From a virus: a stretch of 35,456 nt of DNA. Below are positions 717-33,146 of this stretch, piece by piece. Numbering within the stretch: position 1 is the stretch's first letter; every line of letters begins with the position of its first letter. Both the position numbers and the translations under genes were made by a program. The stretch spans positions 1-35,456 of the IMG/VR virus record IMGVR_UViG_3300030116_001635, one strand, 5' to 3'. The notes under the pieces were generated by a model that was not told where the DNA came from, searched no databases, and saw nothing but the letters and a program-made list of their open reading frames with translations.

Positions 717-731
717 ACAATAGATGATATA

Positions 732-3243: not shown

Positions 3244-3835
3244 ACATCAGTTTGGTACTGATGCAACATGTGGAATATTATATATTGATGGTCAGTTTGA
3301 GTGTTATACATTAGAAGACCAGTATCAAGAAGTAAAAGTTATGCACGAAACTTGTATTGATGATGGTGTGTACGAAATTAAGTTTAAAAAATGGGGTGGC
3401 TTTCACGAAAAATACAAGGTGCGTTATGGTAGTGACCACTATGGTATGTTGCACATACAAAATGTGCCGAATTTTTCGGACATACTTATCCACACTGGGA
3501 ATACTGACGAACATACATCAGGTTGCTTACTGTTGGGCGAGACTCAACAAGACTTAGACATGGGTAAAGATGGATTCATTGGTTCAAGTAAGAACGCATA
3601 TCTAAAAGCATACAAGAAGATAGCTAAAGAGTTATTAATAGGTGTAAAAGTGACTATTGAATACACAACTATTGCAAAGTTGTTAGGTAAAGAACTATCA
3701 AATAAATCTACAGATGATGTTGTATTAACTAGAACAGTTATGGATAAATTGCAAGAACTACAAGAAGATATTTCTGGTGTAAATGGAAATGTAATTCAAA
3801 ATCAAGCTATGCTAAAAGGGAGATTGATAAGATAA
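3224..3835 (+). CDS. DUF5675-like protein, probable cell-wall-active lysis protein, 203 aa
   Basis: I chose the ATG at 3224 because AGGTGG lies 5 nt upstream; a TTG at 3215 would add three residues. The first 115 residues show the DUF5675 pattern: GILYIDGQFECYTLED, a YEI strand, and the block ILIHTGNTDEHTSGCLLLG, with His90 and Cys101 resembling the catalytic pair of L,D-transpeptidase-like folds. Beyond about residue 150 is a helical extension absent from the core domain. Proteins of this family often lie beside phage holins, as here, so a peptidoglycan-directed role is inferred. It overlaps the next gene by 1 nt (TAATG). Confidence 0.7.
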   Translation: MKLQVVRHQFGTDATCGILYIDGQFECYTLEDQYQEVKVMHETCIDDGVYEIKFKKWGGFHEKYKVRYGSDHYGMLHIQNVPNFSDILIHTGNTDEHTSGCLLLGETQQDLDMGKDGFIGSSKNAYLKAYKKIAKELLIGVKVTIEYTTIAKLLGKELSNKSTDDVVLTRTVMDKLQELQEDISGVNGNVIQNQAMLKGRLIR

Positions 3836-4116
3836 TGTTAGAAAAATTTAAACGAAAAAGAAATTCTGATGGTACATTCAAGAAGGATGTGGCGTGGACA
3901 CCATGGAACGAAGCATGGAGTTATAAAATGAGTGATGACTTAAAAGACATGCTTGAGAGAACTGCATGGACCTTCATTGAAGCGTTCATTGGTGCATTAA
4001 CAGTTGCTCCATTAGTTGGTGTAGAAGCTGAAACACTTCAGTTAGCTGCATTAGCAGGTGGTGGTGCTGCACTAGCAGTCATCAAGACATACGCTAAAAA
4101 ACAAATTACTAAGTAA
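3835..4116 (+). CDS. Holin, r1t-like, 93 aa
   Basis: After a polar N-terminus of about 40 residues come two hydrophobic helices (about 46-60 and 68-84) and a basic end (KTYAKKQITK). The motif ERTAWTFIEAFIGALTV followed by LAALAGGGAALAVIKTYA fits the phage r1t holin family, common in actinophages and Lactococcus phages. Family role: it oligomerises in the inner membrane and triggers release or activation of the lysin. It is directly coupled to the DUF5675-like gene upstream, completing a lysis cassette. Confidence 0.75.
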   Translation: MLEKFKRKRNSDGTFKKDVAWTPWNEAWSYKMSDDLKDMLERTAWTFIEAFIGALTVAPLVGVEAETLQLAALAGGGAALAVIKTYAKKQITK

Positions 4117-4146
4117 GGTATAAACAACAGGGTAAAGGAGGTTTAT

Positions 4147-5316
4147 ATGCCTAACATTCCTGAAGAGTGGGGTAATAACTTCTACAAATCTGGGTGGAAA
4201 CCAGGGGTAGATGTTAATGACCAAACAGGACAGGGTGAAATCACACATGTTGGAACTGACCCAAATTACACAAATAAGTTTGACCAGATTCTGCGTGAAT
4301 GGGGTTATGACCCAAAGTTATATGAGATAGAAGGTACAGTAAGGTCTAGTTCATGGTCTGTACAATTAAAAGGAGGTCGCACTGAGACCTTCTTTGCATT
4401 TAAAGGACTTGTAAAAAAGAAAAGTCCTACCCATGACAAATACTTTAACGAGTTGTTTAAACGAGCAGCAAAGAAACCACCAGTTGTATCTAAATATAAA
4501 CAAGGTGACACTGCGTTTATGTTTTTTATGAGTGACTGGCAACTTGGAAAAAAAGATTATGGAGTAGAGAATACTATCAACAGATACGATAGGGCTTTAC
4601 AAGATTCAGTAAATAGAATTAAAGACCTGCGTAAGTTAGGTCACGATATAGATGAGATATATATGGTAGGACTTGGTGACCTTACAGAAAACTGTACGCC
4701 ACACTTCTACGAATCACAACCACATAATGTAGAACTTACATTGATTGAGCAGTACGCATTAGCAAGAGCTATGATTATGAAAACCATAGATACATTCTTA
4801 CCTCATGCACCAAAGTTAATCTTGGCAGGTGTTCCAGGTAATCATGGTGAGATGTCAAGGACCAGTAAAGGTCAGGTATCTACAAACAGATTAGATAACT
4901 CAGACACTATGCACTTGCAGATATGTGAAGAGATTATGAAAGCTAATCCAGAGAGATACAGTAAGGTTGAAGTAAATGTGCCTACTGGCTTTCATCAAAC
5001 GCTAGTCATTAAGGGTAAGACAGTTGCCTTTACACATGGACACATGACTGGTGGTAGTGGTAATCCAGAAGCTAAGATAGAAAAATGGTGGAAGGGTCAA
5101 ATGTATGGGTGGTTGCCAGTAGGTGACGCAGAGATATTAGTGACAGCTCACTATCATCACCTAAGAATGAAACAACAAGGAGATAGAACTTGGTTTCAAG
5201 CACCATCAATAGATAAGAGTATAGATTTTACAGAGAGAACTGGGTTGTGGTCACACCCTGGTGTCCTTACCTTCACCATAAGTAATAAAGGTTGGGATAA
5301 TTATTGCCCACTATAA
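4147..5316 (+). CDS. Calcineurin-like metallophosphoesterase, Mre11/SbcD-like nuclease, 389 aa
   Basis: Strong Shine-Dalgarno AAGGAGG before the ATG at 4147. All metallophosphoesterase signature blocks are present in order: SDWQLGK (near 129), GLGDLTEN (near 176), VPGNHGE (near 231), THGH (near 297) and TAHYHH (near 334). The two-metal site therefore looks intact. Related actinophage proteins are usually called Mre11/SbcD-like double-strand-break exonucleases. It could work with the Rad52-like protein and the PD-(D/E)XK nuclease of the opposite operon in recombination. The first 125 residues are a family-specific N-terminal extension. It is the last gene of the left plus-strand block and faces the minus-strand operon across only 17 bp. 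A GTTTAAAC copy is in frame at 4455-4462 (LFKR). Confidence 0.85.
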   Translation: MPNIPEEWGNNFYKSGWKPGVDVNDQTGQGEITHVGTDPNYTNKFDQILREWGYDPKLYEIEGTVRSSSWSVQLKGGRTETFFAFKGLVKKKSPTHDKYFNELFKRAAKKPPVVSKYKQGDTAFMFFMSDWQLGKKDYGVENTINRYDRALQDSVNRIKDLRKLGHDIDEIYMVGLGDLTENCTPHFYESQPHNVELTLIEQYALARAMIMKTIDTFLPHAPKLILAGVPGNHGEMSRTSKGQVSTNRLDNSDTMHLQICEEIMKANPERYSKVEVNVPTGFHQTLVIKGKTVAFTHGHMTGGSGNPEAKIEKWWKGQMYGWLPVGDAEILVTAHYHHLRMKQQGDRTWFQAPSIDKSIDFTERTGLWSHPGVLTFTISNKGWDNYCPL

Positions 5317-5326: not shown

Positions 5327-5333
5327 TCCTTGT

Positions 5334-5810
5334 TTAAACAGGTAGTTCTTTGTACGCTTTGGCGTTGCCCATAAAATCTTTTTCTGGATAATACTGTAAT
5401 GGTATTCTTGGGTCAGTCCAGTAATCATATAATTTATGGTGGTCTATCCACACTGGGTCTGCATTTATGTTTTTAAAATACATGATACCTACCTTGACTT
5501 CTTTAAATCTTGAACCTTTAAATGCCATCTCCTGTATCTTGTAATAGTCTTCTGCTTTAAGTTTGTTAGTTCCTTTAACTTCTATAAAGTATATATATCC
5601 TTTACGAACCAGTATATAATCTGGTAGCAGTAGTATCTTTGTTGCATACCAGAACAAATCCAGTTTGTTTTCTTTGGGGTCAGTTCCTATGCGTAAGTAA
5701 TCTTGATACTCTACACATTCATTAGCTTCTAAATGTTTTTGCATTGCTAAATCTGCCATGTCTTCACCACTGTTTCTTGATTCGTATGTGTCTTTGTATG
5801 TATTGCTCAT
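5334..5810 (-). CDS. PD-(D/E)XK-type nuclease, 158 aa
   Basis: The segment around residues 62-88 reads PDYILVRKGYIYFIEVKGTNK. It carries the catalytic Asp of the PD element and, a strand later, the E-V-K of the (D/E)XK motif, followed by an amphipathic helix with a Gln-containing DYYKIQEM. This is the core of Holliday-resolvase or VRR-NUC-like nucleases, and the size is right for a single domain. Probable role: cleavage of recombination or replication intermediates with the Rad52-like protein of the same operon. The start codon is preceded by GTTTAAACA, and the stop TAA is itself within another GTTTAAAC (5332-5339), so the gene is bracketed by the palindrome. Confidence 0.75.
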   Translation of the reverse strand: MSNTYKDTYESRNSGEDMADLAMQKHLEANECVEYQDYLRIGTDPKENKLDLFWYATKILLLPDYILVRKGYIYFIEVKGTNKLKAEDYYKIQEMAFKGSRFKEVKVGIMYFKNINADPVWIDHHKLYDYWTDPRIPLQYYPEKDFMGNAKAYKELPV

Positions 5811-5811
5811 T

Positions 5812-5819
5812 GTTTAAAC
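5812..5819 (-). promoter_or_regulatory. GTTTAAAC stop/start cassette before the nuclease gene
   Basis: On the minus strand GTTTAAACAATG contains the TAA stop of the 32-aa gene and ends in the ATG of the nuclease gene, with GAGGA about 12 nt upstream acting as Shine-Dalgarno. The palindrome fills the spacer between ribosome-binding site and start. Confidence 0.7.
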
Positions 5820-5912
5820 ACAGTCCTCTATCATGTGTGCTATACAACCAACACATCTGCCATCATGCGTAAGTGTAGTCTCAGGTGCTAATCCACATTC
5901 TTTACACTTCAT
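5814..5912 (-). CDS. Zinc-ribbon micro-protein, 32 aa
   Basis: A 32-residue frame starting MKCKEC contains two CxxC pairs (Cys3/Cys6 and Cys20/Cys23), the layout of a minimal zinc ribbon. The start overlaps the end of the upstream 64-aa gene by 11 nt, and the stop lies in a GTTTAAAC site. It sits in a tightly packed operon, which favours a real gene despite the weak Shine-Dalgarno. Function unknown; such knuckles often bind nucleic acid or partner proteins. Confidence 0.6.
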   Translation of the reverse strand: MKCKECGLAPETTLTHDGRCVGCIAHMIEDCV

Positions 5913-6096
5913 TATCATCACCTAGCTTTACCCAACATATATTACATACACTATGGTCTTCGTCTTGGTCTGTTAATTCACTGGCACACAGCATACAGTT
6001 AGCTCCTCGTGGTACAGCTTTAACATTACCTACTTCTTTTTGTCTAACCCAAAACTCTTGTAATGGTTTGCTCATCTCTTCAAAAGGGGATGACAT
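5902..6096 (-). CDS. Small CxxC protein, 64 aa
   Basis: A good Shine-Dalgarno (GGAGGTAATC) precedes the ATG at 6096. The N-terminal half is helical (EEMSKPLQEFWVRQKEV) and the C-terminal half holds two CxxC pairs (CMLC near 34-37 and CNIC near 51-54) around an acidic segment, a classic treble-clef or zinc-ribbon spacing. It overlaps the preceding gene by 17 nt and the following micro-gene by 11 nt. Probably a zinc-binding accessory protein of the early operon; no specific function recognised. Confidence 0.65.
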   Translation of the reverse strand: MSSPFEEMSKPLQEFWVRQKEVGNVKAVPRGANCMLCASELTDQDEDHSVCNICWVKLGDDNEV

Positions 6097-6376
6097 CTTG
6101 ATTACCTCCTTGGTCTGCTTTTTTTACCATGGCATGACACACTTGGTATGTCCACTTATGGTAGTTATCTTCTTCTGTTTGTTTGTATCTTGCTCCACAA
6201 TATGTGTTGCCCTCCATGTCTGTATAAAATATCTTGTTGTTTAAACAGACATGTGGTGCTTTATGTTTAGTATCTGGTTGAGCTACAACATCAAAGTTAT
6301 GGTTAGGGTATCTCTCTTTTAATTTAGATTTAAGTTTATCTACATTAAAGATTTGCCCTGTACTCTCAAGTGACAC
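6080..6376 (-). CDS. Hypothetical protein, 98 aa, GTG start
   Basis: The GTG at 6376 directly abuts the TAG stop of the Rad52-like gene (TAGGTG), with AAAGGA about 11 nt upstream; no ATG lies near the N-terminus, so GTG is the likely start. The sequence is basic in its first third (KLKSKLKERYP), with CLNNKIFYTDMEGNTYCGARYK in the middle and a Cys/His-containing tail. The mid-region could be a small beta hairpin. An in-frame GTTTAAAC lies at 6239-6246. Coupled to the recombination gene upstream, so a helper role is possible; no family recognised. Confidence 0.65.
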   Translation of the reverse strand: MSLESTGQIFNVDKLKSKLKERYPNHNFDVVAQPDTKHKAPHVCLNNKIFYTDMEGNTYCGARYKQTEEDNYHKWTYQVCHAMVKKADQGGNQDVIPF

Positions 6377-7348
6377 CTATGAACCATCCTTTAATGACCA
6401 GTCTCCATCATTATCTATCCAGTCAAATACATTACCTTTTGTGAGTTGACCATCAGCTAAAAACTTCTTTGCTTTTTTAACTAAGTCCATGTCGCCTTTG
6501 TCTGTTGATTTACTGATAGCTTGGTTAAACTTCTCCATCTGTTTTTCAGTTGGGCTATCCCCTGGGTTTTTCATAACAGGTTTTTGTTCTACTTCTCCAA
6601 AGACATCTGCAATAATTCCTTCTTGCTCTGCCTTATCACCAATCTCATTTGCTATCTGTTCAAACAAGTCAAGGTATTGACCAATCATATTGTTATCCCA
6701 CTTCTCTACATCTTTGTCATTACCTTGTCCAGTAAATTGTGTATAAGATGTTTGCTTAGCTTGGTTCTCTATATCTTTAGGTAAATCAAATCCTTCAATA
6801 ACACTTGCTATTTGTTTAGCCACCTTCTTATAACCAATGTCCTCTTCAAACTTCTTGATAGATTCTTCAGTTATATCCTTGACATCTTGTGTCGGCTTGT
6901 TTTCTTTTTTACGCTTGTCTACCTTTGCTACTTCTACTGTGTCCTGCTTAGGTGTAGTGTAGTAATGTTCTTCTTCTGTTATATCACCAGTCCAAAGATG
7001 TAGTCCAATACCATGTCTCATAGCTCCACGCTTTAATGCGTCACTCATACAAAGTTTTAATAACTCACCTTCAGTATTGTTATTGTTTACAGCAGTGTTA
7101 TCCACATCCCCAACTTCATCATGGCTTACTCCCCACAATGTGAAGGTAGTGACCACTGCTCTAACTTCTCCCTTATGATTTCTAATAACTTCTTTTAATG
7201 TGTGAGACCACTCACCAAAAGCATACTTGTTTAAACGAGCAGTCACTAAATGGTGAGGTACATAATCACCAAACTTACCTTTAGGTGCTTTTTTAATTTC
7301 ATCTTTACTAAATGGTTTAGTAATTGCTTTTATATTTTTATCGTCCAT
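6377..7348 (-). CDS. Rad52-like single-strand annealing protein, 323 aa
   Basis: Residues about 10-125 carry the Rad52/Rad22-type recombinase fold: PFSKDEIKKAP, then YVPHHLVTARLNKYAFGEW, a VVTTFTLWG strand, and the diagnostic SDALKRGAMRHGIGLHLW near 102-119. The family anneals complementary single strands on ring oligomers. The rest (about 130-323) is polar, low in structure and Lys/Asp-rich, with a Pro/Thr segment. Such tails usually bind single-strand-binding protein or polymerase. It has GGAGGA before the ATG and lies in an operon with an HTH gene upstream and a nuclease downstream. In-frame GTTTAAAC at 7229-7236 (RLNK). Confidence 0.8.
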   Translation of the reverse strand: MDDKNIKAITKPFSKDEIKKAPKGKFGDYVPHHLVTARLNKYAFGEWSHTLKEVIRNHKGEVRAVVTTFTLWGVSHDEVGDVDNTAVNNNNTEGELLKLCMSDALKRGAMRHGIGLHLWTGDITEEEHYYTTPKQDTVEVAKVDKRKKENKPTQDVKDITEESIKKFEEDIGYKKVAKQIASVIEGFDLPKDIENQAKQTSYTQFTGQGNDKDVEKWDNNMIGQYLDLFEQIANEIGDKAEQEGIIADVFGEVEQKPVMKNPGDSPTEKQMEKFNQAISKSTDKGDMDLVKKAKKFLADGQLTKGNVFDWIDNDGDWSLKDGS

Positions 7349-7349
7349 A

Positions 7350-7655
7350 CTATTCTTCCTCCTGTTTGCTATCTATAATCTTGTAGACTCTCTGCCTACT
7401 TACTTTTATAATCTCTGCTACTTTTATAACAGACATTAACTTGTTCTTAACTATGTATGTAATAAGTCTAGCTCTTTGTTGAGACAATTTTTTTTCTTGC
7501 AGTCTATTGTCTTTAATTAACTCTGTAAGATATATAAGTCTATCTTCATGCTGACCTTCTGGTATATCTTTAAAGTGCATCTCAACACCATTGATATATG
7601 TAATAGCTCCATCACTACCAGTAATAGCAGAATCATTCATTATTTGCATTCTCAT
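7350..7655 (-). CDS. Small helix-turn-helix protein, candidate regulator, 101 aa
   Basis: The C-terminal half (about 55-95) is Lys/Arg-rich with an HTH: LSQQRARLITYIVKNKL, then SVIKVAEIIKVSRQRVYKIIDS, where VAEIIKVSRQRVYKII has the spacing of a helix-turn-helix with a recognition helix. The N-terminal half looks like a small beta domain (AITYINGVEMHFKDIPEG). It starts at an ATG overlapping the upstream stop (ATGA), with GGAGGAGGA ahead. As the only recognisable free-standing DNA-binding protein in the minus-strand block, it is a candidate for binding the GTTTAAAC sites; this is inference. Confidence 0.65.
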   Translation of the reverse strand: MRMQIMNDSAITGSDGAITYINGVEMHFKDIPEGQHEDRLIYLTELIKDNRLQEKKLSQQRARLITYIVKNKLMSVIKVAEIIKVSRQRVYKIIDSKQEEE

Positions 7656-7900
7656 TCTTCCTCCTCCTTAATTTCATATCCATTTATATCTGTAATTGAT
7701 TCTTCTTCTTGTATTTGCAGTGCAATCTTTTGTGTGTTCTCATTATGGTCGGCAACGAATTCGTCTAACAACTCAGCTATTCTCTGCGTGTTTAAACTGG
7801 TTAGTAATACTCCAGTCTCTACCTTTTGTCCTCCACATGCGTTAGCTAATTTAACTGCCCATCTCTTAATACTTTTGGGGTTGTCAAATATATTAGGCAT
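7652..7900 (-). CDS. Hypothetical small acidic-tailed protein, 82 aa
   Basis: A strong Shine-Dalgarno (AGGAGGTGGG) precedes the ATG. The first half (about 8-30) is basic and amphipathic (KSIKRWAVKLANACGG). The middle is helical (RIAELLDEFVADHNENTQKIALQIQEEE) and the end is a run of Glu. GTTTAAAC is in frame at 7790-7797 (SLNT). It is coupled to the HTH gene by a 4-nt overlap, so the two proteins may act together. Family not recognised. Confidence 0.65.
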   Translation of the reverse strand: MPNIFDNPKSIKRWAVKLANACGGQKVETGVLLTSLNTQRIAELLDEFVADHNENTQKIALQIQEEESITDINGYEIKEEEE

Positions 7901-7934
7901 AAGCCCACCTCCTTCTCTTCTTCTTTTGTTTTGC

Positions 7935-8093
7935 TTAGACTGTTTCGGCTACTGGTATCTCAACTAGCCTTACCAGAAACATACCACCTAAGTCTTTAAG
8001 TTCTCGTACTTTGCATTGTGCGTCATGCTTGTCTTTATAATCCCAAGTCATCACTCCACCATACACACTTGTACTTCGTACTTGATATATCAT
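7935..8093 (-). CDS. Small hypothetical protein, 52 aa
   Basis: A 52-residue frame with AGGAG seven nt before the ATG at 8093. It reads as a compact alpha/beta unit: a beta strand (MIYQVRST), GGVMTWDYKDKHDAQCKVRELKDLGG, then a strand (MFLVRLVEIP). The pattern beta-helix-beta with Lys/Arg in the helix resembles many tiny phage early proteins, but no family is recognised. It fills what would otherwise be an empty 430-bp gap in the operon. Confidence 0.6.
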   Translation of the reverse strand: MIYQVRSTSVYGGVMTWDYKDKHDAQCKVRELKDLGGMFLVRLVEIPVAETV

Positions 8094-8161
8094 AGTTCTC
8101 CTATGTAATCCTCTATTTAATTCTAGTCCTTACTTTCATATATGTAAACTACTGTTGAGGT

Positions 8162-8205
8162 ACAAGGTGTAAGCACAATGAACAAAACTTACACCTTGTT
8201 TAAAC
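8162..8205. other. Perfect 12-bp stem-loop abutting a GTTTAAAC site
   Basis: ACAAGGTGTAAG (8162-8173) and its exact reverse complement CTTACACCTTGT (8188-8199) flank a 14-nt loop. The 3-prime arm runs straight into GTTTAAAC (8198-8205). It lies in the gap between the 39-aa gene and the 52-aa gene. No U-run follows on the minus strand, so it is not a canonical intrinsic terminator. It could be an mRNA processing or stabilising hairpin, or an operator. Confidence 0.7.
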
Positions 8206-8214
8206 ATGTACCTA

Positions 8215-8334
8215 CTACTCTTTTACTTCTACTATCTCATCTACTAAATCACTGCCACTAAGACTTTGTATATGGTCTTCAGCGTCCTCCAAAGATGGTT
8301 CGTCTACTTCTATTACTACTCTAAATATTGGCAT
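8215..8334 (-). CDS. Small acidic protein, 39 aa
   Basis: This 39-residue frame is preceded by GGAGG and the palindrome in the order GGAGG-GT-GTTTAAACA-ATG. The product begins with a beta strand (MPIFRVVIEVDEP) and is otherwise acidic and helical (LEDAEDHIQSLSGSDLVDEIVEV). The start cassette is identical in form to that of four other genes in the operon, which is good evidence that it is translated. Function unknown. Confidence 0.65.
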   Translation of the reverse strand: MPIFRVVIEVDEPSLEDAEDHIQSLSGSDLVDEIVEVKE

Positions 8335-8335
8335 T

Positions 8336-8343
8336 GTTTAAAC
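8336..8343 (-). promoter_or_regulatory. GTTTAAAC stop/start cassette before the 39-aa gene
   Basis: In minus-strand orientation GAGGAGGGTGTTTAAACAATG contains, in order, a Shine-Dalgarno, the final GTT-TAA of the 73-aa gene, one codon (ACA) and the next ATG in the same frame. Confidence 0.7.
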
Positions 8344-8559
8344 ACCCTCCTCTATAACATTGGTATCTACATACCACTTGTGTAATATAATCTGCTGTTC
8401 TTCATTTAACATATCAACTACAAAGTTGTATCTGTTAGTCATTATGTTATGTAGTCTGTACTGCTCCTTGTATGCCTTCCTTAGTGCGTACCTGTCTGCT
8501 AACAGTCCACTCCATATCCATGCTACAATCACAGCTCCTATTATTATGTATGTCTCCAT
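8338..8559 (-). CDS. Small single-TM protein, 73 aa
   Basis: Good Shine-Dalgarno (AGGAGGAATGTA) before the ATG. Residues 4-20 (YIIIGAVIVAWIWSGLL) are a membrane segment, followed by a basic stretch (RYALRKAYKEQYRLHNIM) that predicts a cytoplasmic C-terminal domain. The last 30 residues are helical. The protein ends in GV with its stop inside GTTTAAAC. It might be a membrane-associated host-takeover or superinfection factor, but there is no specific evidence. Confidence 0.65.
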   Translation of the reverse strand: METYIIIGAVIVAWIWSGLLADRYALRKAYKEQYRLHNIMTNRYNFVVDMLNEEQQIILHKWYVDTNVIEEGV

Positions 8560-8570
8560 TACATTCCTCC

Positions 8571-8789
8571 TTATGAATATTTACCATGCCCTAATAACTC
8601 TTTTAATATAGTTATTCTTGCGTAGTGCCATATCAAGTTATCCATAGCAGAAAAATCTCTTCTGCTAACTTTTTCAATAACTTGCCATACTTCCATACCT
8701 GCTACATCTTCACTATCATAAGCTCCTTTGTTTATGTAGTCTTGCAGGTTTGCTTCTTCTAGTTTTAATTTTGCTAATACATCTGGCAT
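8571..8789 (-). CDS. Hypothetical helical protein, 72 aa
   Basis: Starts at TAATG overlapping the upstream stop, with GGAGGAAG ahead. Almost entirely alpha-helical by composition (VLAKLKLEEANLQDYINKG, DVAGMEVWQVIEKVSRRDF, LIWHYARITILKELLGHG). No Cys pairs and no membrane segment. It belongs to the run of small early proteins with no recognised family; a protein-protein adaptor is one possibility. Confidence 0.65.
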   Translation of the reverse strand: MPDVLAKLKLEEANLQDYINKGAYDSEDVAGMEVWQVIEKVSRRDFSAMDNLIWHYARITILKELLGHGKYS

Positions 8790-9145
8790 TACTCTTCCTC
8801 CTCTACTGTCGTAGTCTCTCCCATTGTCTTACCAAATCCCATCTCTTTGAGTTTGTTTAAACAGTGTTCTGTGTACTCTCCATCTTCAGTTATCCAACCA
8901 TAGTCCATCATGTCCTGCACTTGCGTTGCCACTGCCTTATTTACATCAAGGTATTCTCTGTATTCCTGTTTGTCTTGACCTAACTTTCTAATCAAAGTTC
9001 TAAAGAACATTGTGCATTGTTCAAAGTTAAGATGACCTTCTGTAAATAACTTGTGCATTATCTTTATGTAATCTCTGTCGTTGTGCTTACCTGAATCCAT
9101 CAAGGTTTGGTTTACATACCCTTGATATTTTTTTATATCACTCAT
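8789..9145 (-). CDS. Hypothetical protein, 118 aa
   Basis: Start is the ATG of a GTTTAAACAATG cassette with GGAGG 11 nt upstream. The product is helical (SDIKKYQGYVNQTLMDSG, LNFEQCTMFFRTLIRKL) with a central WITEDGEYTEHCLNKLKEMGFG that looks like a small winged or beta-turn motif, and an acidic C-terminus. A second palindrome is in frame at 8855-8862 (CLNK). The WITEDGEYT segment resembles the LISKDGKITQHG segment of the 81-aa protein at 10503-10748, hinting at paralogy. Function unknown. Confidence 0.65.
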   Translation of the reverse strand: MSDIKKYQGYVNQTLMDSGKHNDRDYIKIMHKLFTEGHLNFEQCTMFFRTLIRKLGQDKQEYREYLDVNKAVATQVQDMMDYGWITEDGEYTEHCLNKLKEMGFGKTMGETTTVEEEE

Positions 9146-9146
9146 T

Positions 9147-9154
9147 GTTTAAAC
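9147..9154 (-). promoter_or_regulatory. GTTTAAAC stop/start cassette before the 118-aa gene
   Basis: Minus-strand GGAGGATGTTTAAACAATG holds a Shine-Dalgarno, the last codon and TAA of the 111-aa gene, and the next ATG. The palindrome occupies the whole spacer. Confidence 0.7.
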
Positions 9155-9484
9155 ATCCTCCTTGTCTATTACTACTAATTGCTTAGCAGTAGTCTTGCCT
9201 TCACGATACGCTCTCATGTGTATCTTGGATTCGTTGTATGTGTATTTGTTTTGTATACACTGCCACAACTGTTGTACTACTTCCACTGTGTTGTGTAAGT
9301 CCTTGGCTAACTTCTCCTTTTCTTCTCTTAACATTTCTGTGACTTGTGTTGGCTTGTACTCTGAGATTTGGTCATGCTCTTTGTCATAACTAAAATTCTC
9401 ATTCATGTAGTCGCTGTGATAATTAAATAGATTGCCTTTGCTATCTGAGATAATTACTTCGTGTATAAAATATTCTTCTGCCAT
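9149..9484 (-). CDS. Hypothetical protein, 111 aa
   Basis: AAGGAGAAACA precedes the ATG. The N-terminal 40 residues look like beta strands (YFIHEVIISDSKGNLFNYHS); residues 50-80 are a likely coiled coil (TEMLREEKEKLAKDLHNTVEVVQQLWQCI); the C-terminus is basic then acidic. Its stop is inside GTTTAAAC at 9147-9154. A further palindrome lies 15 nt upstream of its start, on the far side of the ribosome-binding site. No family recognised. Confidence 0.65.
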   Translation of the reverse strand: MAEEYFIHEVIISDSKGNLFNYHSDYMNENFSYDKEHDQISEYKPTQVTEMLREEKEKLAKDLHNTVEVVQQLWQCIQNKYTYNESKIHMRAYREGKTTAKQLVVIDKEDV

Positions 9485-9498
9485 TGTTTCTCCTTCTT

Positions 9499-9540
9499 GT
9501 TTAAACAGCTAGAGAGGTAGGGCTACTTACCTCTCTGCTG
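9499..9540 (-). other. Intergenic hairpin with a bulge, abutting GTTTAAAC
   Basis: CAGC plus AGAGAGGTA (9506-9519) pair with TACCTCTCT plus GCTG (9528-9540), a 13-bp stem with one bulged T and an 8-nt loop. Read on the minus strand the stem ends directly in GTTTAAAC (9499-9506), giving a short U-run only. It separates the 311-aa gene from the 111-aa gene and may be a leaky terminator or an RNA processing site. Confidence 0.65.
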
Positions 9541-9550
9541 TCATCCACTT

Positions 9551-10486
9551 TTAGTTTTCTTCCTTCCATGTGTTTCTTTGTAGAGTTCCACCTCTAGTTA
9601 TATTCCAATAACCTACAAGTGTTTCACTTGTGCCATCAGTATATTTAAAAGTAGTAGTCCATTGTTTTCTTCTCTTGTCCTCTGGATTCCTACCTTTGTG
9701 TTGTGATATACCATCAGAGTTGTACCTACTAGCTCCCATGCCTGTTTGCAAGTCTGCTAGTCGTATGCCCTGCCATCTCTCTGTCTCCCAGTTGTTATCC
9801 ATACCTGCAAGTAGACCTTCTAGTATGTCCTCTGCTCTTTCGTTTGCATAGTCTGGCTCAAACTTACCATCCTCATCAACATCATAAGAATCATGTGCGT
9901 CTAGGATTTCTTGTGGTGTATCTTTGGTTATCTCTACCACCTTGTTTGTACTACCATCCCAGTAGTATCTACCAGTCTCACATCTAGTTTTATCTAACAA
10001 AGATGGAAAGTGTGCTAATACATCTGGATGTTTACCATCTAACCAGTTGTCTTTGTATCTTCTTGCTATCTCTCCTGATTCCTCAGCTACTAACAGCATG
10101 TTTAAACACTGTTGTGCTAACTGAATAATCTGTTCTTTGTTATCAAAGTAAATAGAAAAGTTTGCTTGTTCTCTGTCTCTTCTATTTTCTTTATCTCTAC
10201 TAGCATATCCAGTAAGACTGATACCACCTAGGTGTCTATCTGTTGTAAGATATAGTCTCTGTTTAAACACAGAGCTACCATATCCATAGATACCATTGAC
10301 ATCAAAGTTTAAAAAGTCTAGCCCATCTTGTAATGTGTATTCCTTTACAGGTTTGTAGCCATCATTTTTATTCCATGGTTTGCCACCATCTACATTTACA
10401 GATTCTACATCAGCATTAAATTTCTGTGCGTCTGCAATATCCATAGCTTGTCCTTTTGTTATTGTTTCTTTTATTTCTTGTGTCAT
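9551..10486 (-). CDS. Hypothetical early protein, 311 aa
   Basis: It starts in a GTTTAAACAATG cassette with GGAG upstream. The sequence is soluble and rich in Asp, Gly and Trp, with no transmembrane segment. Noticeable stretches are LYLTTDRHLGGISLTGYASRD, IYFDNKEQIIQLAQQCLNMLL, and a C-terminal basic domain with repeated Trp and Thr (KQWTTTFKYTDGTSETLVGYW). The middle (about 195-230) is acidic with DYDVDEDGKFEPD-like calcium-loop character. Two palindromes are in frame (10100 as CLNM, 10261 as VFKQ). It is the largest unidentified gene of the minus block. Confidence 0.7.
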   Translation of the reverse strand: MTQEIKETITKGQAMDIADAQKFNADVESVNVDGGKPWNKNDGYKPVKEYTLQDGLDFLNFDVNGIYGYGSSVFKQRLYLTTDRHLGGISLTGYASRDKENRRDREQANFSIYFDNKEQIIQLAQQCLNMLLVAEESGEIARRYKDNWLDGKHPDVLAHFPSLLDKTRCETGRYYWDGSTNKVVEITKDTPQEILDAHDSYDVDEDGKFEPDYANERAEDILEGLLAGMDNNWETERWQGIRLADLQTGMGASRYNSDGISQHKGRNPEDKRRKQWTTTFKYTDGTSETLVGYWNITRGGTLQRNTWKEEN

Positions 10487-10487
10487 T

Positions 10488-10495
10488 GTTTAAAC
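10488..10495 (-). promoter_or_regulatory. GTTTAAAC in SD-start spacer of the 311-aa gene
   Basis: AAGGAGAGTGTTTAAACAATG on the minus strand. Here the upstream stop (TAA at 10503-10505) lies before the Shine-Dalgarno, so the palindrome is kept although it is not needed as a stop codon. Confidence 0.65.
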
Positions 10496-10502
10496 ACTCT
10501 CC

Positions 10503-10748
10503 TTATTTCTCTTCTAACAACATCTGGTCTTGTTTCACATTCTCTATTGAATCAAGTCCATGTTGTGTTATCTTTCCATCTTTAGATATTAGATTTAGTT
10601 CTATTATCTGTTTAGCTGTTCGTCCATAGTGTCCTTGTAATGACCATGCTTGTTTACTCTTTATTAGTTTGCTAAAGAGATTCAAAGTACCTTCATAATC
10701 AAGCTCACCTGTTTCGTATGCTATTATTTGTTCTACTGTATCTGGCAT
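10503..10748 (-). CDS. Conserved marine-phage-type small protein, 81 aa
   Basis: The product reads MPDTVEQIIAYETGELDYEG, then a segment LFSKLIKSKQAWSLQGHYGRTAKQIIELNLIS. The AWSLQGHYGRTA pattern is familiar from small hypothetical proteins of marine cyanophages and pelagiphages. It is predicted to be helical with a short DGKIT turn near 64-68. Its start uses the GTTTAAACAATG cassette and follows the 59-aa gene immediately. Function unknown; resemblance is from memory of the family and was not checked. Confidence 0.7.
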   Translation of the reverse strand: MPDTVEQIIAYETGELDYEGTLNLFSKLIKSKQAWSLQGHYGRTAKQIIELNLISKDGKITQHGLDSIENVKQDQMLLEEK

Positions 10749-10749
10749 T

Positions 10750-10757
10750 GTTTAAAC
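10750..10757 (-). promoter_or_regulatory. GTTTAAAC stop/start cassette before the 81-aa gene
   Basis: Minus-strand AGAGGTGTTTAAACAATG. The GTT-TAA ends the 59-aa gene and the ATG starts the 81-aa gene one codon later in the same frame. Confidence 0.7.
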
Positions 10758-10931
10758 ACCTCTGCCTTCTACTTGTTCTTTGATTGATTCCCAGTTGCTT
10801 AATGTATCTGTGTGCATTTTCTTCCACACTGATTGCAACAAGTCATCTTGTAGTGCTTGTACTTTTTCTTCTGGTAAATAGACACTAGCTCTTCGTAGTA
10901 TTCCATTTATCTCTTTGATTGTTTCTTCCAA
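10752..10931 (-). CDS. Small helical protein with TTG start, 59 aa
   Basis: AAGGAGGT lies 7 nt before a TTG at 10931, which opens a 59-residue frame; no ATG is available, so TTG is the likely start. The product is amphipathic and charged (EETIKEINGILRRA, YLPEEKVQALQDDLLQSVWKKM). It ends in GV with its stop inside a GTTTAAAC cassette, like four other genes of the block. It is the first gene after the promoter candidate at 11145-11174. Function unknown. Confidence 0.6.
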   Translation of the reverse strand: MEETIKEINGILRRASVYLPEEKVQALQDDLLQSVWKKMHTDTLSNWESIKEQVEGRGV

Positions 10932-11144
10932 TTTGCTACCTCCTTGTTTGTTTCTAGGATTCTGGAGAGATGAGTTAGGTGTGCGTTTACTTGTTTAACT
11001 CTTAGCTCCTAAGTATCTCACTCAGTAAGCAACCTTAATCTCTCCTTCCTCCTAGCATATTGAAAGGAGTAAATAATCTACATTAATTATCTACTTACCT
11101 ACAAACTTACTAGCCCTGTGATATATACCAACAGCTATTTACAA

Positions 11145-11174
11145 ATAATATTTAGGATAAACTTGACATGTCAC
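11145..11174 (-). promoter_or_regulatory. Promoter candidate for the minus-strand early operon
   Basis: On the minus strand GTGACA (11174-11169) and TATTAT (11150-11145) are separated by 18 bp, each one mismatch from the sigma-70 consensus. A perfect 10-bp palindrome TGACATGTCA (11164-11173) covers the -35. GTTTAAAC (11180-11187) lies 5 bp upstream. ACATGT occurs at 11166-11171 and 11186-11191, 20 bp apart. The layout suggests regulated initiation of the operon that begins with the 59-aa gene. Confidence 0.5.
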
Positions 11175-11179
11175 CCCTT

Positions 11180-11187
11180 GTTTAAAC
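11180..11187. promoter_or_regulatory. GTTTAAAC operator candidate upstream of the -35
   Basis: An intergenic palindrome immediately upstream of the GTGACA -35 candidate in the minus direction. Its extended context (CCTTGTTTAAACATGTA) is shared with the copy at 8198-8205. Confidence 0.55.
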
Positions 11188-11249
11188 ATGTATATAAATA
11201 CCACTACATATTGTATGTCCTAAATGGCTCTGTATGAAGAATAAATGAC

Positions 11250-11266
11250 AACTGTGGATGACAGTT
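11250..11266. other. Inverted repeat with DnaA-box-like sequence
   Basis: AACTGT-GGATG-ACAGTT is a perfect 6-bp dyad. On the minus strand it contains TCATCCACA, one mismatch from the TTATCCACA DnaA box. A single degenerate box is weak evidence of an origin. Confidence 0.35.
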
Positions 11267-11276
11267 CCAGAACAGG

Positions 11277-11309
11277 TATCGTGCTCTTAAATCGTCTCTA
11301 TCGTGCTCT
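11277..11309. repeat. Iteron-like repeats ATCGTGCTCT
   Basis: TATCGTGCTCT occurs at 11277-11287 and 11299-11309, with a degenerate ATCGTCTCT copy between them (11291-11299), giving three ATCGT units in 33 bp. They lie between the terminator and the early promoter and could be binding sites for an initiator or regulator. Confidence 0.55.
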
Positions 11310-11315
11310 CAGGTA

Positions 11316-11345
11316 TAAAACAGAAAACCCCTGATTTCTCAGGGG
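11316..11345 (-). terminator. Intrinsic terminator with GAAA tetraloop
   Basis: On the minus strand CCCCTGA-GAAA-TCAGGGG forms a 7-bp GC-rich stem with a GNRA loop, followed at once by TTTTCTGTTTTA. It lies 23 bp beyond the stop of the 157-aa gene and separates the two minus-strand operons. Confidence 0.85.
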
Positions 11346-11368
11346 CTCTGCACACAAGGGGGATTGTG

Positions 11369-11842
11369 TTATTTGTTCTCTAGTTCCTCTCTCTGCTTGT
11401 TTAAACGAGGTTGGAATGTTGGGATAAAATACTTGCTCATATATTTACCCCATCTGGAATCTGTCCAGTCTTCAAACAATAATTCCCATGCTCCATAAGT
11501 TCTGTACTTATCTACATTTTCTAGTGCTTGTTTAAACGAGTATTCATAATACATGAACCTACCATCTACTTGTATGTTCCATTTTTTAAACAGCTCATCT
11601 TTAGTTCCTTCTAATCTTTTGCCATTAGAAAAATCTAAGATTTGATTGCTTACTTTATTTAATAAGAAGGCATGACCTCCCCACCATTCAGAAGCCATCT
11701 CTCTTACTGCATGTACCAATACCCAGTCATCTTTTTCATTTGCAGTTGTTCTGTTATTCATTTCTACAAACTCCCAAAGATTTGCATAATAACAATTAGA
11801 ATAATCTATTCCTCTAATTTGTTTTTTAGTTTCTTTACTCAT
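11369..11842 (-). CDS. Possible papain/transglutaminase-fold protein, 157 aa
   Basis: Residues about 13-30 read DYSNCYYANLWEFVEMN, then DWVLVHAVREM, then GGHAFL and, a strand later, ILDFSNG. A Cys near the N-terminus followed by a buried His and an Asp/Asn is the order of catalytic residues in papain-like or transglutaminase-like folds used by phages. The pattern is suggestive but not diagnostic. The C-terminal half is rich in aromatics and basic. GAGAGGAAAACA precedes the ATG, with a palindrome (11856-11863) just upstream. Two further palindromes are in frame, at 11399 (RLNK) and 11530 (SFKQ), and an intrinsic terminator follows. Confidence 0.6.
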   Translation of the reverse strand: MSKETKKQIRGIDYSNCYYANLWEFVEMNNRTTANEKDDWVLVHAVREMASEWWGGHAFLLNKVSNQILDFSNGKRLEGTKDELFKKWNIQVDGRFMYYEYSFKQALENVDKYRTYGAWELLFEDWTDSRWGKYMSKYFIPTFQPRLNKQREELENK

Positions 11843-11855
11843 TGTTTTCCTCTCT

Positions 11856-11885
11856 GTTTAAACAAGGGGGAGGTTATCCCCCTTG
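11856..11885 (-). other. Hairpin CAAGGGGG/CCCCCTTG abutting GTTTAAAC
   Basis: CAAGGGGG (11863-11870) and CCCCCTTG (11878-11885) form a perfect 8-bp GC-rich stem with a 7-nt loop just after the stop of the SprT-like gene. On the minus strand the stem runs into TTTAAAC, so the palindrome GTTTAAAC (11856-11863) supplies the only U-run. A weak intrinsic terminator, or a terminator assisted by a bound protein, is plausible. Confidence 0.65.
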
Positions 11886-11893
11886 AATAAATC

Positions 11894-12631
11894 TTATACA
11901 TAGCTACCTATGTTGATTTCTGATTCTATACTAGCCACACCTTGACACACTGGGCATGTTATATCTCTAACTTTACTGAGAACACCTGAGCTCATATAGA
12001 ACACAGTGCCATGACCTTTGCGTCTTGCTTTATCGCTAGTACCTTCGCACCAGACATCTAAGCAGACACATTTGATTTGTCTTGTTGATTGCTTTTTGCC
12101 TCTGTGGACATAAGCCACATAAGGATATAGACCATTCTTTTTTAACCATCCAGATATTACCTGAATGAATTCTGCTGATACAGTTGTGGCAGTTGGAATA
12201 CCTGCTTGTTTAAACACACCGAAGACTCCATCTAAGAATTCTCCTTTGTGACCTGTACCTTCTGTAAGAACAGCATGGGTTATCTCATGGGCAGTCACCA
12301 TTAAGACCTGAATTGTTTCGTCAAGCTCTCTGGATATTTCTACCTTCCTAGTTTCTCCATTAGCTGAAGCTCCTAGATAATGACATTGACCTAACACAGC
12401 GTTATAGTTTTTGTTAGACCTTCCTCTTGTATCTCCGATATGAATCTTGATACCATCTTTGCCCATTGCTGAAGAATCTCCAATATTCTTTTTAGCTAAT
12501 TCTTTTACGCAGAATTTAGCGAAAGAATTTAAGTAGTCTTCTGCTGTTTGCTTTTTACTCACTGGTAATTTATTTATCCACTTTGGATAATCTTTTTTAG
12601 TTATAGTCTTGAACTCACTTCGTGATTTCAT
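11894..12631 (-). CDS. SprT-like zinc metalloprotease, 245 aa
   Basis: The motif AHEITH (HExxH at 115-119) is followed by GTGHKGEF with a third His at 128, the usual zinc site of SprT/Spartan-like peptidases found in phages. C-terminally, from about 187, Cys pairs (IKCVCLDVWCEG and CPVC) form the zinc ribbon typical of the family. The family cleaves proteins on DNA or acts in virion or host-takeover steps; the exact substrate is unknown. It starts at an ATG overlapping the upstream stop (TAATG). A palindrome is in frame at 12208-12215 (VFKQ). Confidence 0.8.
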   Translation of the reverse strand: MKSRSEFKTITKKDYPKWINKLPVSKKQTAEDYLNSFAKFCVKELAKKNIGDSSAMGKDGIKIHIGDTRGRSNKNYNAVLGQCHYLGASANGETRKVEISRELDETIQVLMVTAHEITHAVLTEGTGHKGEFLDGVFGVFKQAGIPTATTVSAEFIQVISGWLKKNGLYPYVAYVHRGKKQSTRQIKCVCLDVWCEGTSDKARRKGHGTVFYMSSGVLSKVRDITCPVCQGVASIESEINIGSYV

Positions 12632-12771
12632 TATTTATCTCCTTTTTTGTTTGCTTTAAATTCTGGACAAGTTTTACAATAAAATGAATTCTCATCTGAT
12701 TGTAATTCTTCTCCCATTTCTAATTCTCTTTTGCACCAATAACAAAAGAACTTTGGAATTATACCTGCCAT
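12631..12771 (-). CDS. Zinc-ribbon micro-protein, 46 aa
   Basis: GAGGAG lies 7 nt before the ATG at 12771. The 46 residues contain CYWC (10-13) and CKTC (32-35), a full four-Cys zinc ribbon with a 18-residue loop, and a Lys-rich end. The stop overlaps the ATG of the SprT-like gene, so the two are translated together. It is the first gene of the minus-strand operon. It could be a DNA- or protein-binding adaptor; no family name is given. Confidence 0.7.
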   Translation of the reverse strand: MAGIIPKFFCYWCKRELEMGEELQSDENSFYCKTCPEFKANKKGDK

Positions 12772-12815
12772 TGTTTTCTCCTCGTTTGTGTATACTCCAG
12801 TTTACAATACTCCCA

Positions 12816-12859
12816 GTTTAAACAAGGTATTTCTTTAGAATTTTTCTATATGTTTAAAC
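12816..12859. promoter_or_regulatory. Pair of GTTTAAAC sites upstream of the minus operon
   Basis: Two intergenic palindromes at 12816-12823 and 12852-12859 are 36 bp apart centre to centre, 45 and 81 bp upstream of the first minus-strand ATG. Both are followed on the plus strand by AAG. I see no convincing -35/-10 pair between them. Confidence 0.55.
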
Positions 12860-14079: not shown

Positions 14080-14337
14080 ATGGCTACATACCAAGGCAAG
14101 TCTGTAACCTTAAATTCACCTAGACCAATTAAAAAAGGTGAACCAGGTTATGGTCGTAAAAAATCTGTGGTTTATGTTAAGGATGGCGACAAAGTAAAAA
14201 AGGTTATGTTCGGTGACCCTAACATGAAAATCAGAAAAGGTAATGCTGCTGCTAGAAAATCGTTTCGTGCTAGACACAAGTGCGATTCTGCAACAGATAA
14301 AACTACGCCTAGGTATTGGAGTTGTAAAGCATGGTAG
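14080..14337 (+). CDS. Conserved basic phage protein, 85 aa
   Basis: AGAGGTAAC precedes the ATG. The protein is Lys/Arg-rich with the ordered blocks KKGEPGYGRKK, VYVKDGDKVKKVMFGDP, NMKIRKGNAAARKSFRARHKCD and a terminal PRYWSCKAW. The last blocks (SFRARHKC and YWSCKAW) are recognisable from small conserved proteins of marine cyano- and pelagiphages. The two Cys could form a metal site with the adjacent His. A virion-DNA or prohead role is possible from its place before the terminase gene, but it is not established. Confidence 0.7.
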   Translation: MATYQGKSVTLNSPRPIKKGEPGYGRKKSVVYVKDGDKVKKVMFGDPNMKIRKGNAAARKSFRARHKCDSATDKTTPRYWSCKAW

Positions 14338-14349
14338 TAAGGAGACAGC

Positions 14350-14508
14350 ATGGCAACTAAAAAAGGTTTATATCACAATATAAACAAAAGGAAAAAAGCA
14401 GGAACAAGTAGGTCAAAAAAGAACTCTACTATAAGTGCTAAAGCATATAGAGAAATGCAAAAAGGTTTTCCTAACAGCAAAAAGAATAAAGCCAAACGCA
14501 AAAAATAA
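14350..14508 (+). CDS. Basic small protein, 52 aa
   Basis: GGAGACAGC precedes the ATG at 14350. The product is about one third Lys or Arg (KKGLYHNINKRKKAGTSRSKKN), with a helical ISAKAYREMQKGF and a Lys-rich end. Similar MATKKGLY-type small basic proteins occur in marine phages beside the previous gene. Possibly DNA-binding or scaffold-associated; function not known. Confidence 0.65.
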   Translation: MATKKGLYHNINKRKKAGTSRSKKNSTISAKAYREMQKGFPNSKKNKAKRKK

Positions 14509-14604
14509 TTGAAAGTAGCCTGTCCTGCTTGTCAGGAATATTTGCAGGTGGTTAGGTCAAAATTAAAGTGCAAAAACAAAAAGTGTAAACATTATGGTAA
14601 ATAA
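14509..14604 (+). CDS. Cys-rich micro-protein with TTG start, 31 aa
   Basis: A TTG directly after the previous stop (TAATTG) opens a 31-residue frame with CPAC (5-8) and CKNKKC, a possible four-Cys zinc knuckle, in a Lys-rich background. It overlaps the terminase start by 11 nt. There is no clear Shine-Dalgarno, so translation would depend on re-initiation. Confidence 0.4.
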   Translation: MKVACPACQEYLQVVRSKLKCKNKKCKHYGK

Positions 14605-16513
14605 AAAATTATGTTATGCAGCAGGTTGTTTAAGACCTTTGCCACCTAAAGCAAGTAAGTATTGCAGCACTAGATGTCGTAATAGAATATCGCAACAAAA
14701 GAAAAGAGCAAAAGCAAAAGGTATTGAGTGGACACAAGAAGATGATGTTGTTAATATACCTAGTCAAAAAACTGTACAACAACGAAGAGGTAAAGTCTAT
14801 ACAGATTTAATTGAGTCAGAACTAGGTATGCAAATACTACAAAAAAAATTAACCATGTCTGAAGTTGCAAAGATACTAGACACATCAGTTGCATCAGTAT
14901 CTATGGCATACAATGCTTTTGTAGAAGATACAGAAACAAAAGAATTACAAAAAACTTGGGAAGTACCACAAGTTGCAAAAAAAACATTAGAAGATTTTAA
15001 AGATTTTAGAGATAGATATTTTGAAACAGAACAAGGTATACCATTTGAAACACCAGAGTTTCACATTAAGTGGATAGAGTCTATATTGACTGCTATAGAA
15101 AATGGTGAACAGCACATGATATTGTCACCACCTAGACATGGTAAAACAGAACTGTTAATACATTTTACTGTATGGCTTATCTGTAATAATCCAAACATAA
15201 GAATACTGTGGGTTGGTGGTAACGAAGATATTGCTAAAAACTCTGTGTCTTCTGTAATGGACCAGTTAGAAAATAATGAATTGTTAATAGAAGAGATATG
15301 TGGACCAGGAGCAAAATTTAAACCACAAAACAGAAGTGGTAAAGCGTGGTCATCTACTGAGTTTACTGTAGGTACTAGAACAGTTACAGGTATTAAGTCA
15401 CCTACTATGGTAGGTATTGGTCGTGGTGGTAAAATATTGTCAAGAGACTGTGACATAATTATTGCTGATGACATTGAAGACCACAGCTCTACTATGCAAC
15501 CTGCGTCAAGAGAAAACACAAGAAACTGGTGGACTACAACATTGTCAAGTCGTAAAGAGGAACATACTGCAATGGTAGTTATAGGTTCAAGACAACACTA
15601 TGACGATTTATATTCTCATCTTTTAGAAAACGAATCTTGGGTAACTACAGTAGAAGAAGCACATGATACAAGTTGTAACTTACCTGATTGGAACGAAGAA
15701 GAACATGAAGATTGTATGTTGTGGAAAGGTAAGAGAACTTACAAGTGGTTAATGGATAGAAAAAGAGCAGCAGAAACTACAGGTGGTAGAGCAATATACG
15801 AAATGGTTTATCTTAATGTAGCTATGCCAGATGGTCTTGCTTTATTTGACAGAGCAGAAATAGAAGCATGTAGAGACCAAAAAAGAGACATAGGACAAAT
15901 ACCACCAGGTACAAGACTTATTGCAGGATTAGACCCTGCGTCTACAGGTTATCAAGCTGCATTTTTGTGGGCATACAATATGGATGCAAACAAATTGTAT
16001 ATGGTAGATATGAACAATAGTTTAGGTGGAGGTATACCACAAGCATTAGCTGTAATTAAAGAATGGTGGAGTAAATATAATTTATCACATTGGGTTATTG
16101 AAGAGAATGGTTTTCAAAAAGCTATACGACAAGACAAAAGCATAAGAGAGTTTGCATCAACACATGGTATATTTTTAGAAGGTCACGAAACATATAAAAA
16201 TAAATTTGACCCAGTTTATGGTGTAACAGCTATGAGACCTATGTACCAAGAAGAAATAATTTCTTTGCCATATCTTAGCTTTGAAGCCCAAGAGAAGGTA
16301 AACTTATATACAAGTCAGTTAGTATATTTTAGTTCTGCTAAAAATAAGAGCAAAAGTATTGGAACAAAAACTGACATAGTTATGGCAAGTTGGTTTCCAA
16401 TGAGAGCTATAAGAAGAATGCAAAAAGAAAAATTTGCAGAATTAGGATATGAATATAGTCCTAGCTTTACTGGCTATGAATCTAGTAACATGGACTTAGA
16501 TAACTGGAGATAA
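14594..16513 (+). CDS. terL: Terminase large subunit with N-terminal zinc/HTH extension, 639 aa
   Basis: The ATPase domain has Walker A SPPRHGKT (178-185), Walker B IIIADDIED (288-296) and a coupling region near VVIGSRQHYDDL. The nuclease domain begins at AGLDPASTGYQAAFLW (about 443-458) with its catalytic Asp. Unusually, residues 1-30 hold a Cys cluster (Cys7, Cys12, Cys24, Cys28) and residues 86-107 a helix-turn-helix (LTMSEVAKILDTSVASVSMA). That is the kind of DNA-binding function normally supplied by a small terminase, and no separate small subunit is evident upstream. The motor packages DNA at the portal, encoded next. The stop is immediately followed by the portal start. Confidence 0.92.
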   Translation: MVNKKLCYAAGCLRPLPPKASKYCSTRCRNRISQQKKRAKAKGIEWTQEDDVVNIPSQKTVQQRRGKVYTDLIESELGMQILQKKLTMSEVAKILDTSVASVSMAYNAFVEDTETKELQKTWEVPQVAKKTLEDFKDFRDRYFETEQGIPFETPEFHIKWIESILTAIENGEQHMILSPPRHGKTELLIHFTVWLICNNPNIRILWVGGNEDIAKNSVSSVMDQLENNELLIEEICGPGAKFKPQNRSGKAWSSTEFTVGTRTVTGIKSPTMVGIGRGGKILSRDCDIIIADDIEDHSSTMQPASRENTRNWWTTTLSSRKEEHTAMVVIGSRQHYDDLYSHLLENESWVTTVEEAHDTSCNLPDWNEEEHEDCMLWKGKRTYKWLMDRKRAAETTGGRAIYEMVYLNVAMPDGLALFDRAEIEACRDQKRDIGQIPPGTRLIAGLDPASTGYQAAFLWAYNMDANKLYMVDMNNSLGGGIPQALAVIKEWWSKYNLSHWVIEENGFQKAIRQDKSIREFASTHGIFLEGHETYKNKFDPVYGVTAMRPMYQEEIISLPYLSFEAQEKVNLYTSQLVYFSSAKNKSKSIGTKTDIVMASWFPMRAIRRMQKEKFAELGYEYSPSFTGYESSNMDLDNWR

Positions 16514-25662: not shown

Positions 25663-25663
25663 T

Positions 25664-30399: not shown

Positions 30400-30401
30400 A
30401 C

Positions 30402-33133: not shown

Positions 33134-33146
33134 TTGTTTAAACAAC
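33133..33146. promoter_or_regulatory. 14-bp palindrome GTTGTTTAAACAAC at the capsid promoter
   Basis: The 8-bp core is extended here to a perfect 14-bp palindrome ending directly at the -35 element TTGCAT. It is the longest version of the motif in the window and is placed where a bound protein could block or recruit polymerase. Confidence 0.75.

Follow-up and report, generated by a model that had tools for sequence, protein, structure and literature searches.

A Palindromic Octamer Coupled to a SprT-Like Gene Points to a Previously Undescribed Gene-Control System in Phages

Genes and octamer copies at the locus

The window, by which we mean the whole 35,456-nucleotide stretch analyzed here, is an IMG/VR phage contig that encodes TerL (14594-16513), a major capsid protein (33849-34973), and an early minus-strand operon whose products include an SSAP (6377-7348) and an HTH protein (7350-7655). 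The first large gene of this operon (11894-12631, minus strand) encodes a 245-aa SprT-like, HExxH metalloprotease-like protein with a C-terminal CxnC...CxxC zinc ribbon, the family of which tracks the octamer described below; directly upstream, the sequence holds a small ORF (12631-12771, minus strand) of 46 aa with two CxxC pairs. No integrase was recognized in the window, and no known RNA family or tRNA was found there. Two further features deserve mention. A 631-aa protein (1065-2960), which has no PHROGs family match, starts with a signal-like N terminus and also contains a run of Thr and very long repeats rich in Glu, Asp, Val, and Ile. Just before TerL are the genes for two small proteins of 85 and 52 aa (14080-14508), which are highly basic and conserved in many relatives.

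The commonest 8-mer of the window is GTTTAAAC, with 31 exact copies, 20 of which belong to the longer form TGTTTAAACA. The early cluster (5332-12859) holds 21 of the 31, starting at 5332, 5812, 6239, 7229, 7790, 8198, 8336, 8855, 9147, 9499, 10100, 10261, 10488, 10750, 11180, 11399, 11530, 11856, 12208, 12816, and 12852. Their placements, like those in the window generally, are varied: between ribosome binding site (RBS) and ATG, over stop codons, in leaders, between genes, and inside genes. Upstream of the SprT-like operon, one copy lies in the leader/promoter region at 12816-12823, where related loci have copies about 50 to 150 nt upstream of SprT, and a second, also an exact match, lies at 12852-12859; another (11856-11863) sits just past the SprT-like stop codon and just upstream of the RBS of the next gene. 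Copies fall between the RBS and ATG of 10503-10748(-) (10750-10757, which also contains the stop codon of the upstream gene), of 9551-10486(-) (10488-10495), and of 8789-9145(-) (9147-9154). The copy at 8336-8343 lies between a GGAGG and an ATG of the minus strand and contains the stop codon of 8338-8559(-), and the gene 5334-5810(-) has one copy directly before its ATG, in the RBS-to-ATG interval (5812-5819), and another over its stop codon, at the end of the early operon (5332-5339). The copies at 10100 and 10261 each sit in the loop of a short inverted repeat with G-U pairs. Elsewhere, copies start at 277, 1664, and 4455 in the plus-strand genes on the left flank of the early operon (277-4462) and at 22365, 22424, 22488, 26374, 29250, 33136, and 33466 in or between structural genes (22365-33473).

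The octamer is a selected, regulator-like site

Could so many copies be a by-product of composition or codon usage? Dinucleotide shuffles of the window yield a mean of 1.39 copies (maximum, 8; 0 of 100 reach 31), in line with the one or two that the original prediction had expected. That prediction had counted 30 copies, 17 of them in genes; the counts are 31 and 18 fully within CDS, while its figure of 21 for 5332-12859 stands, as does its gap from 12.9 to 22.3 kb (zero copies between 12860 and 22364). Also as predicted, 13 copies are not fully within CDS, and noncoding DNA is a small share of the window (3,509 of 35,456 bases). When synonymous codons were shuffled within genes, early minus-strand CDS gave 1.30 copies and plus-strand CDS 1.57, against 9 observed in each, a number that 0 of 1,000 shuffles reached in either set. 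The in-gene copies occupy both open codon phases, and selection on the proteins does not explain them, as had been argued from the start. Had relatives kept the genes and lost the sites, the motif would have looked like an artefact of composition; in relatives at 70 to 91% identity, every aligned copy is retained (11/11, 17/17, 7/7, 12/12, and 18/18), whereas 18 to 66% of other 8-mers of equal A/T content are kept. An origin in composition or codon usage, refuted by the shuffles and confronted in addition with conservation in relatives and with a several hundred-fold or greater excess in high-GC phages, has a negligible chance of being correct. The enrichment, the codon shuffles, and the conservation all agree with the proposal of a regulatory site system, and GTTTAAAC is a selected, regulator-like site system. 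Start-adjacent positions account for 41 of 331 nonredundant sites.

The octamer is coupled to the SprT-like gene

Relatives were gathered with the SSAP, TerL, and the 9551-10486 protein, and twenty long records were compared. The nine richest in the octamer (16 to 34 copies) are exactly the nine that carry the family of the 11894-12631 product. The same coupling is seen in loci sampled through TerL, a sampling that is independent of the SprT-like gene: all 14 with the gene upstream are motif rich (1.15 to 2.97 copies/kb), and all 19 without it are poor (0 to 0.92 copies/kb). Scanning with a profile of the SprT-like family extended this to 80 loci, down to 27% identity, and GTTTAAAC is the top palindrome in nearly all of them. 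The HTH product of 7350-7655 had been put forward as the reader of the site. That role is unsupported because relatives in which the motif is absent also carry the HTH family (c15; G007, G019, and G024, with 0 to 2 copies); the family is found in G030 as well. The G030 records (L123 and L124), in which TerL is 98% identical, have an early module without SprT, a single early copy, and nine copies in the structural half, and their early region is likely a module swap. Four motif-rich contigs (L248, L250, L253, and L266) lack SprT in the available piece, which may be truncated. One of them, L248 (12.5 kb; GC 0.50), comes from a different phage and has 13 copies of GTTTAAAC versus 0.06 expected, start adjacent at the contig end.

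Where the motif is abundant in unrelated phages, the SprT-like gene is nearly always there, usually with a site at its front. Methylophilales phage Venkman has 34 copies of GTTTAAAC versus 1.7 expected, and the Nanhaivirus phages R26L, Pan1, and R5C, at 61 to 63% GC, have 11, 8, and 8 versus 0.007 to 0.021; in the stretches from these three, every TTTAAA falls inside the motif. The term "phage-wide" proved too narrow, as the motif occurs also in phages of Actinobacteria and of Alpha-, Beta-, and Gammaproteobacteria, hosts that span several phyla and classes. The description "fully palindromic" holds for GTTTAAAC itself, while several lineages have imperfect forms (GTTTACAC, GTTTATAC, and GTTTGTAC). 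The one-base variant GTTTACAC replaces GTTTAAAC in phages of Arthrobacter (Tweety19, 20 versus 0.08 expected; Maureen, 17 versus 0.19; YesChef, 14 versus 0.07), Microbacterium (Zeta1847, 22 versus 0.08; Floof, 7 versus 0.018), and Streptomyces (Crosby, 12 versus 0.02). Several apparent exceptions to the coupling also have variants: TGTTTATACA in L200, L202, L205, and L206 (8 to 10 copies versus 0.3 to 1.1 expected) and GTTTGTAC in L184 and L185. Mapped on the SprT tree, the motif states require 6 changes versus 12.7 when shuffled (0 of 200 as low), and site variants as read from the sequences follow that tree. No recognized site was found in the SprT-family carriers Dismas, CN1/PSA20, and L232. 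Upstream of SprT, Bordetella phage CN1 and Pseudomonas phage PSA20 (L240 and L272) have repeated, GTTTACTT...CTATACTTCTT-like promoter sequences, which are possibly a further site variant. In Zeta1847 (L235), the unit TTGCGC...GTTTACACGCGTGTAT...ATGACGAACACC is repeated before many small genes, and ACACGCGTGT, considered there as a separate motif, was rejected since it overlaps GTTTACAC. For scoring motif excess against SprT presence across phage genomes, we suggest the pattern GTTTNNAC.

The SprT-like protein and its possible partners

The hallmarks of SprT-like metalloproteases (HExxH, a third zinc ligand, and zinc-ribbon cysteines) are present in the family. The Pfam SprT-like profile matches the window protein weakly (E value of 0.066, below the cutoff) and 33 of 43 homologues (best, 1.5e-6). 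Across the 43 proteins, H115, E116, H119, H128, C190, C226, and C229 are invariant, and C195 is conserved in at least 90%. An AF2 model of the 11894-12631 product (pLDDT of 89) contains no HTH, and its Foldseek matches, all weak, are to metalloproteases, including SPRTN (6mdx) and the repressor-cleaving CapP (7t5t).

These features bear on the main rival to a SprT-like regulator, namely, that a different DNA-binding protein, of phage or host, reads the site and has the SprT-like protein as a protease partner, much as repressors are acted on by proteases of the ImmA/IrrE type; the coupling would then reflect an antirepressor or modulator. An HExxH motif and third His that are intact in 43 of 43 proteins, the likeness to CapP and SPRTN, and the lack of an HTH in the model are all consistent with such a partner. 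However, when the proteins of motif loci were compared by tblastn, the SprT-like family was the only one common to the window-lineage loci and the Venkman and Nanhaivirus stretches, with no second family detectable across the three motif lineages tested, although a very divergent one may have escaped detection. The breadth of the hosts and the agreement of site variants with the SprT tree also argue against a separate reader, an explanation that we regard as rather unlikely.

Sites beside the gene and in apparent promoters

A site lies at most 150 nt upstream of SprT in 30 of 43 genes (16% in random windows) and at most 100 nt past the SprT stop codon in 31 of 43 loci. Copies are otherwise rare in Arya, Persinger, Mano, ep3, and KA2-1, and each of these phages has one no farther than about 35 nt ahead of the SprT start, preceded in ep3 and KA2-1 by a TATAAT. 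In Jilinvirus-like phages, the copy upstream of SprT is often the sole one in the stretch analyzed. In Zeta1847 and Crosby, copies lie in either orientation between TTGCGC/TTGCAC-like and TATGAT/TAGCTT-like hexamers. These copies may sit in promoters; a sigma-70 consensus scan gives only a weak excess around the isolate sites and none in the leader of the window.

Might the octamer instead serve a role at the level of DNA other than transcription control, whether in replication, packaging, or recombination or as a promoter element specific to the phage? Late genes do hold copies, and Tweety19 and Zeta1847 have sigma-factor genes close to SprT. Yet the copies cluster in early genes, in leaders, and beside the SprT gene, and no sigma-factor gene is common across the lineages; we consider a role of this kind very improbable.

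Recognition as DNA or as RNA

Copies between genes in marine loci often sit atop RNA hairpins with varying stems. Stems of at least 10 pairs occur at 14% of intergenic copies versus 1.5% of flank-shuffled controls, and G-U mismatches outnumber A-C mismatches by 12 to 3 (controls, 4.1 versus 6.2). The intergenic hairpins of the related marine loci resemble conserved RNA elements. L005, L164, L200, and other related loci likewise have copies in the loops of short inverted repeats that include G-U pairs. These hairpins, together with the copies between RBS and ATG, speak for an RNA element, GUUUAAAC in hairpin tops, RBSs, and early mRNAs, that would be bound or cut in the manner of T4 RegB or CsrA-type sites. 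In-gene copies, in contrast, show little or no hairpin excess, and copies lie in the apparent promoters of Zeta1847, Crosby, and Jilinvirus-like phages. The orientation of the asymmetric variant is biased: on the coding strand of three phages, nonpalindromic GTTTACAC occurs 43 times and its reverse orientation, GTGTAAAC, 16 times. Because asymmetric variants nevertheless occur in both orientations, and because L205 and L206 share a hairpin in which the orthologous site is flipped between the two, recognition of double-stranded DNA is more likely than recognition of RNA. A pure RNA-hairpin model, which we had earlier favored, was lowered on account of the two orientations in variant lineages, and we now think it improbable that the octamer acts as an RNA element.

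A proposed phage regulon

Starting from the observed enrichment, conservation, and coupling, the variant sites that follow the SprT tree, and the sites beside the SprT gene, we propose a model in which the octamer core GTTTANAC would be a double-stranded DNA recognition site, represented in the window lineage by GTTTAAAC, often within TGTTTAAACA. Copies in leaders and promoters would act as operators of a phage-encoded regulon, and the many copies in and between early genes would reduce early transcription or translation, either in the manner of stoperators or as roadblocks at translation starts. The site specificity would come from the SprT-like protein, which is encoded at the head of the early operon (11894-12631, minus strand) and would control its own expression via the neighboring sites. 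For temperate phages that carry this pair (cluster AZ and Zeta1847), the SprT-like protein would be the immunity repressor or its obligate partner.

On balance, we lean toward the reading that the octamer copies are the operators and stoperator-like copies of a regulon with the SprT-like protein as specificity factor. We infer that this protein binds the site directly and represses by binding. Going further, a protein of the SprT-like metalloprotease fold may itself be a sequence-specific DNA-binding regulator of GTTTANAC. It would then form a new class of phage repressor, present in phages that infect Actinobacteria and Proteobacteria, and would be the immunity repressor that is missing in temperate phages of clusters AZ and EH and in Jilinvirus-like ones, a proposal that we regard as tentative, at just short of an even chance. 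Counting against the regulon are the model without an HTH, the SprT carriers without a site, the G030 copies without SprT, the motif-rich contigs with no SprT in the available piece, and the weak sigma-70 excess around isolate sites; the hairpin-top intergenic copies with excess G-U and the orientation bias count against a purely DNA-based mechanism.

Comparison with known systems

How does the pairing compare with systems already described? HIP1 (GCGATCGC) of cyanobacteria is likewise an over-represented palindromic octamer that also occurs within genes, but it is a cellular, genome-wide feature, whereas the present octamer is phage encoded, clustered in early genes, and linked to one gene. 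In ImmA/IrrE/CapP systems, a phage or defense HExxH protease is linked to repressor operators; here, no common cognate HTH repressor was detected, and the linked protein belongs to the SprT-like family and has a zinc ribbon at its C terminus. SPRTN/Wss1/SprT proteins share the SprT domain plus a zinc-binding module, but they act on DNA-protein crosslinks with no known sequence specificity (PMC5128726), whereas the gene described here is tied to a specific octamer.

Among phages, the start-associated SAS/ESAS of cluster K mycobacteriophages and cluster EF Microbacterium phages resemble the octamer in that some copies lie at an RBS before an ATG, in early genes, and some near inverted repeats (PMC3203893, PMC7302621). 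The SAS is GGGATAGGAGCCC, a 13-mer (PMC3203893) that contains the Shine-Dalgarno sequence and lies 3 to 7 nt before start codons, whereas the octamer comes after the Shine-Dalgarno sequence, has most of its copies elsewhere, and differs in sequence. The repeats listed in the available part of a Microbacterium phage survey differ from the octamer as well (PMC7302621). L5 stoperators, named as a parallel in the original prediction, are a good functional one: the L5/cluster A repressor system also places numerous short sites across a phage genome, in promoters and in the narrow gaps between genes, with site variants that match protein variants, and a role in immunity that is likely shared by the temperate members here (PMC9283540, PMC6550527). 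L5 sites, however, are asymmetric 13-mers read in an orientation-dependent manner by a monomeric HTH repressor (PMC9283540), whereas the core described here is a palindromic or near-palindromic 8-mer in both orientations, with many in-gene copies and a linked SprT-like metalloprotease, and no cluster A-type HTH repressor is common to the three lineages tested.

Among the papers that the searches listed, none was relevant to GTTTAAAC/TGTTTAAACA in phages, to GTTTACAC, or to SprT-like phage repressors, and none described the octamer-SprT pairing. Most known regulons built on many short operator sites come from L5-like phages, in which the repressor is an HTH protein. In the present case, a single octamer core is accompanied by a single protein family, with site variants to match, in unrelated phages that differ widely in GC content and host. 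A SprT-like protein that reads the site would be a new class of sequence-specific regulator. Powerpuff, a temperate phage of cluster AZ, forms immune lysogens "despite lacking identifiable repressors" (PMC8758107), a SprT-like gene is common to cluster AZ and EH phages (PMC8758107), and these phages have an integrase and no known repressor. The model, if true, would answer the stated question of how Powerpuff is immune, and, as AZ/EH-type phages are cultured, that question is directly testable. The pairing of octamer and SprT-like gene thus suggests a form of viral gene control not described before, to which the repressor still missing for some dormant phages may belong.
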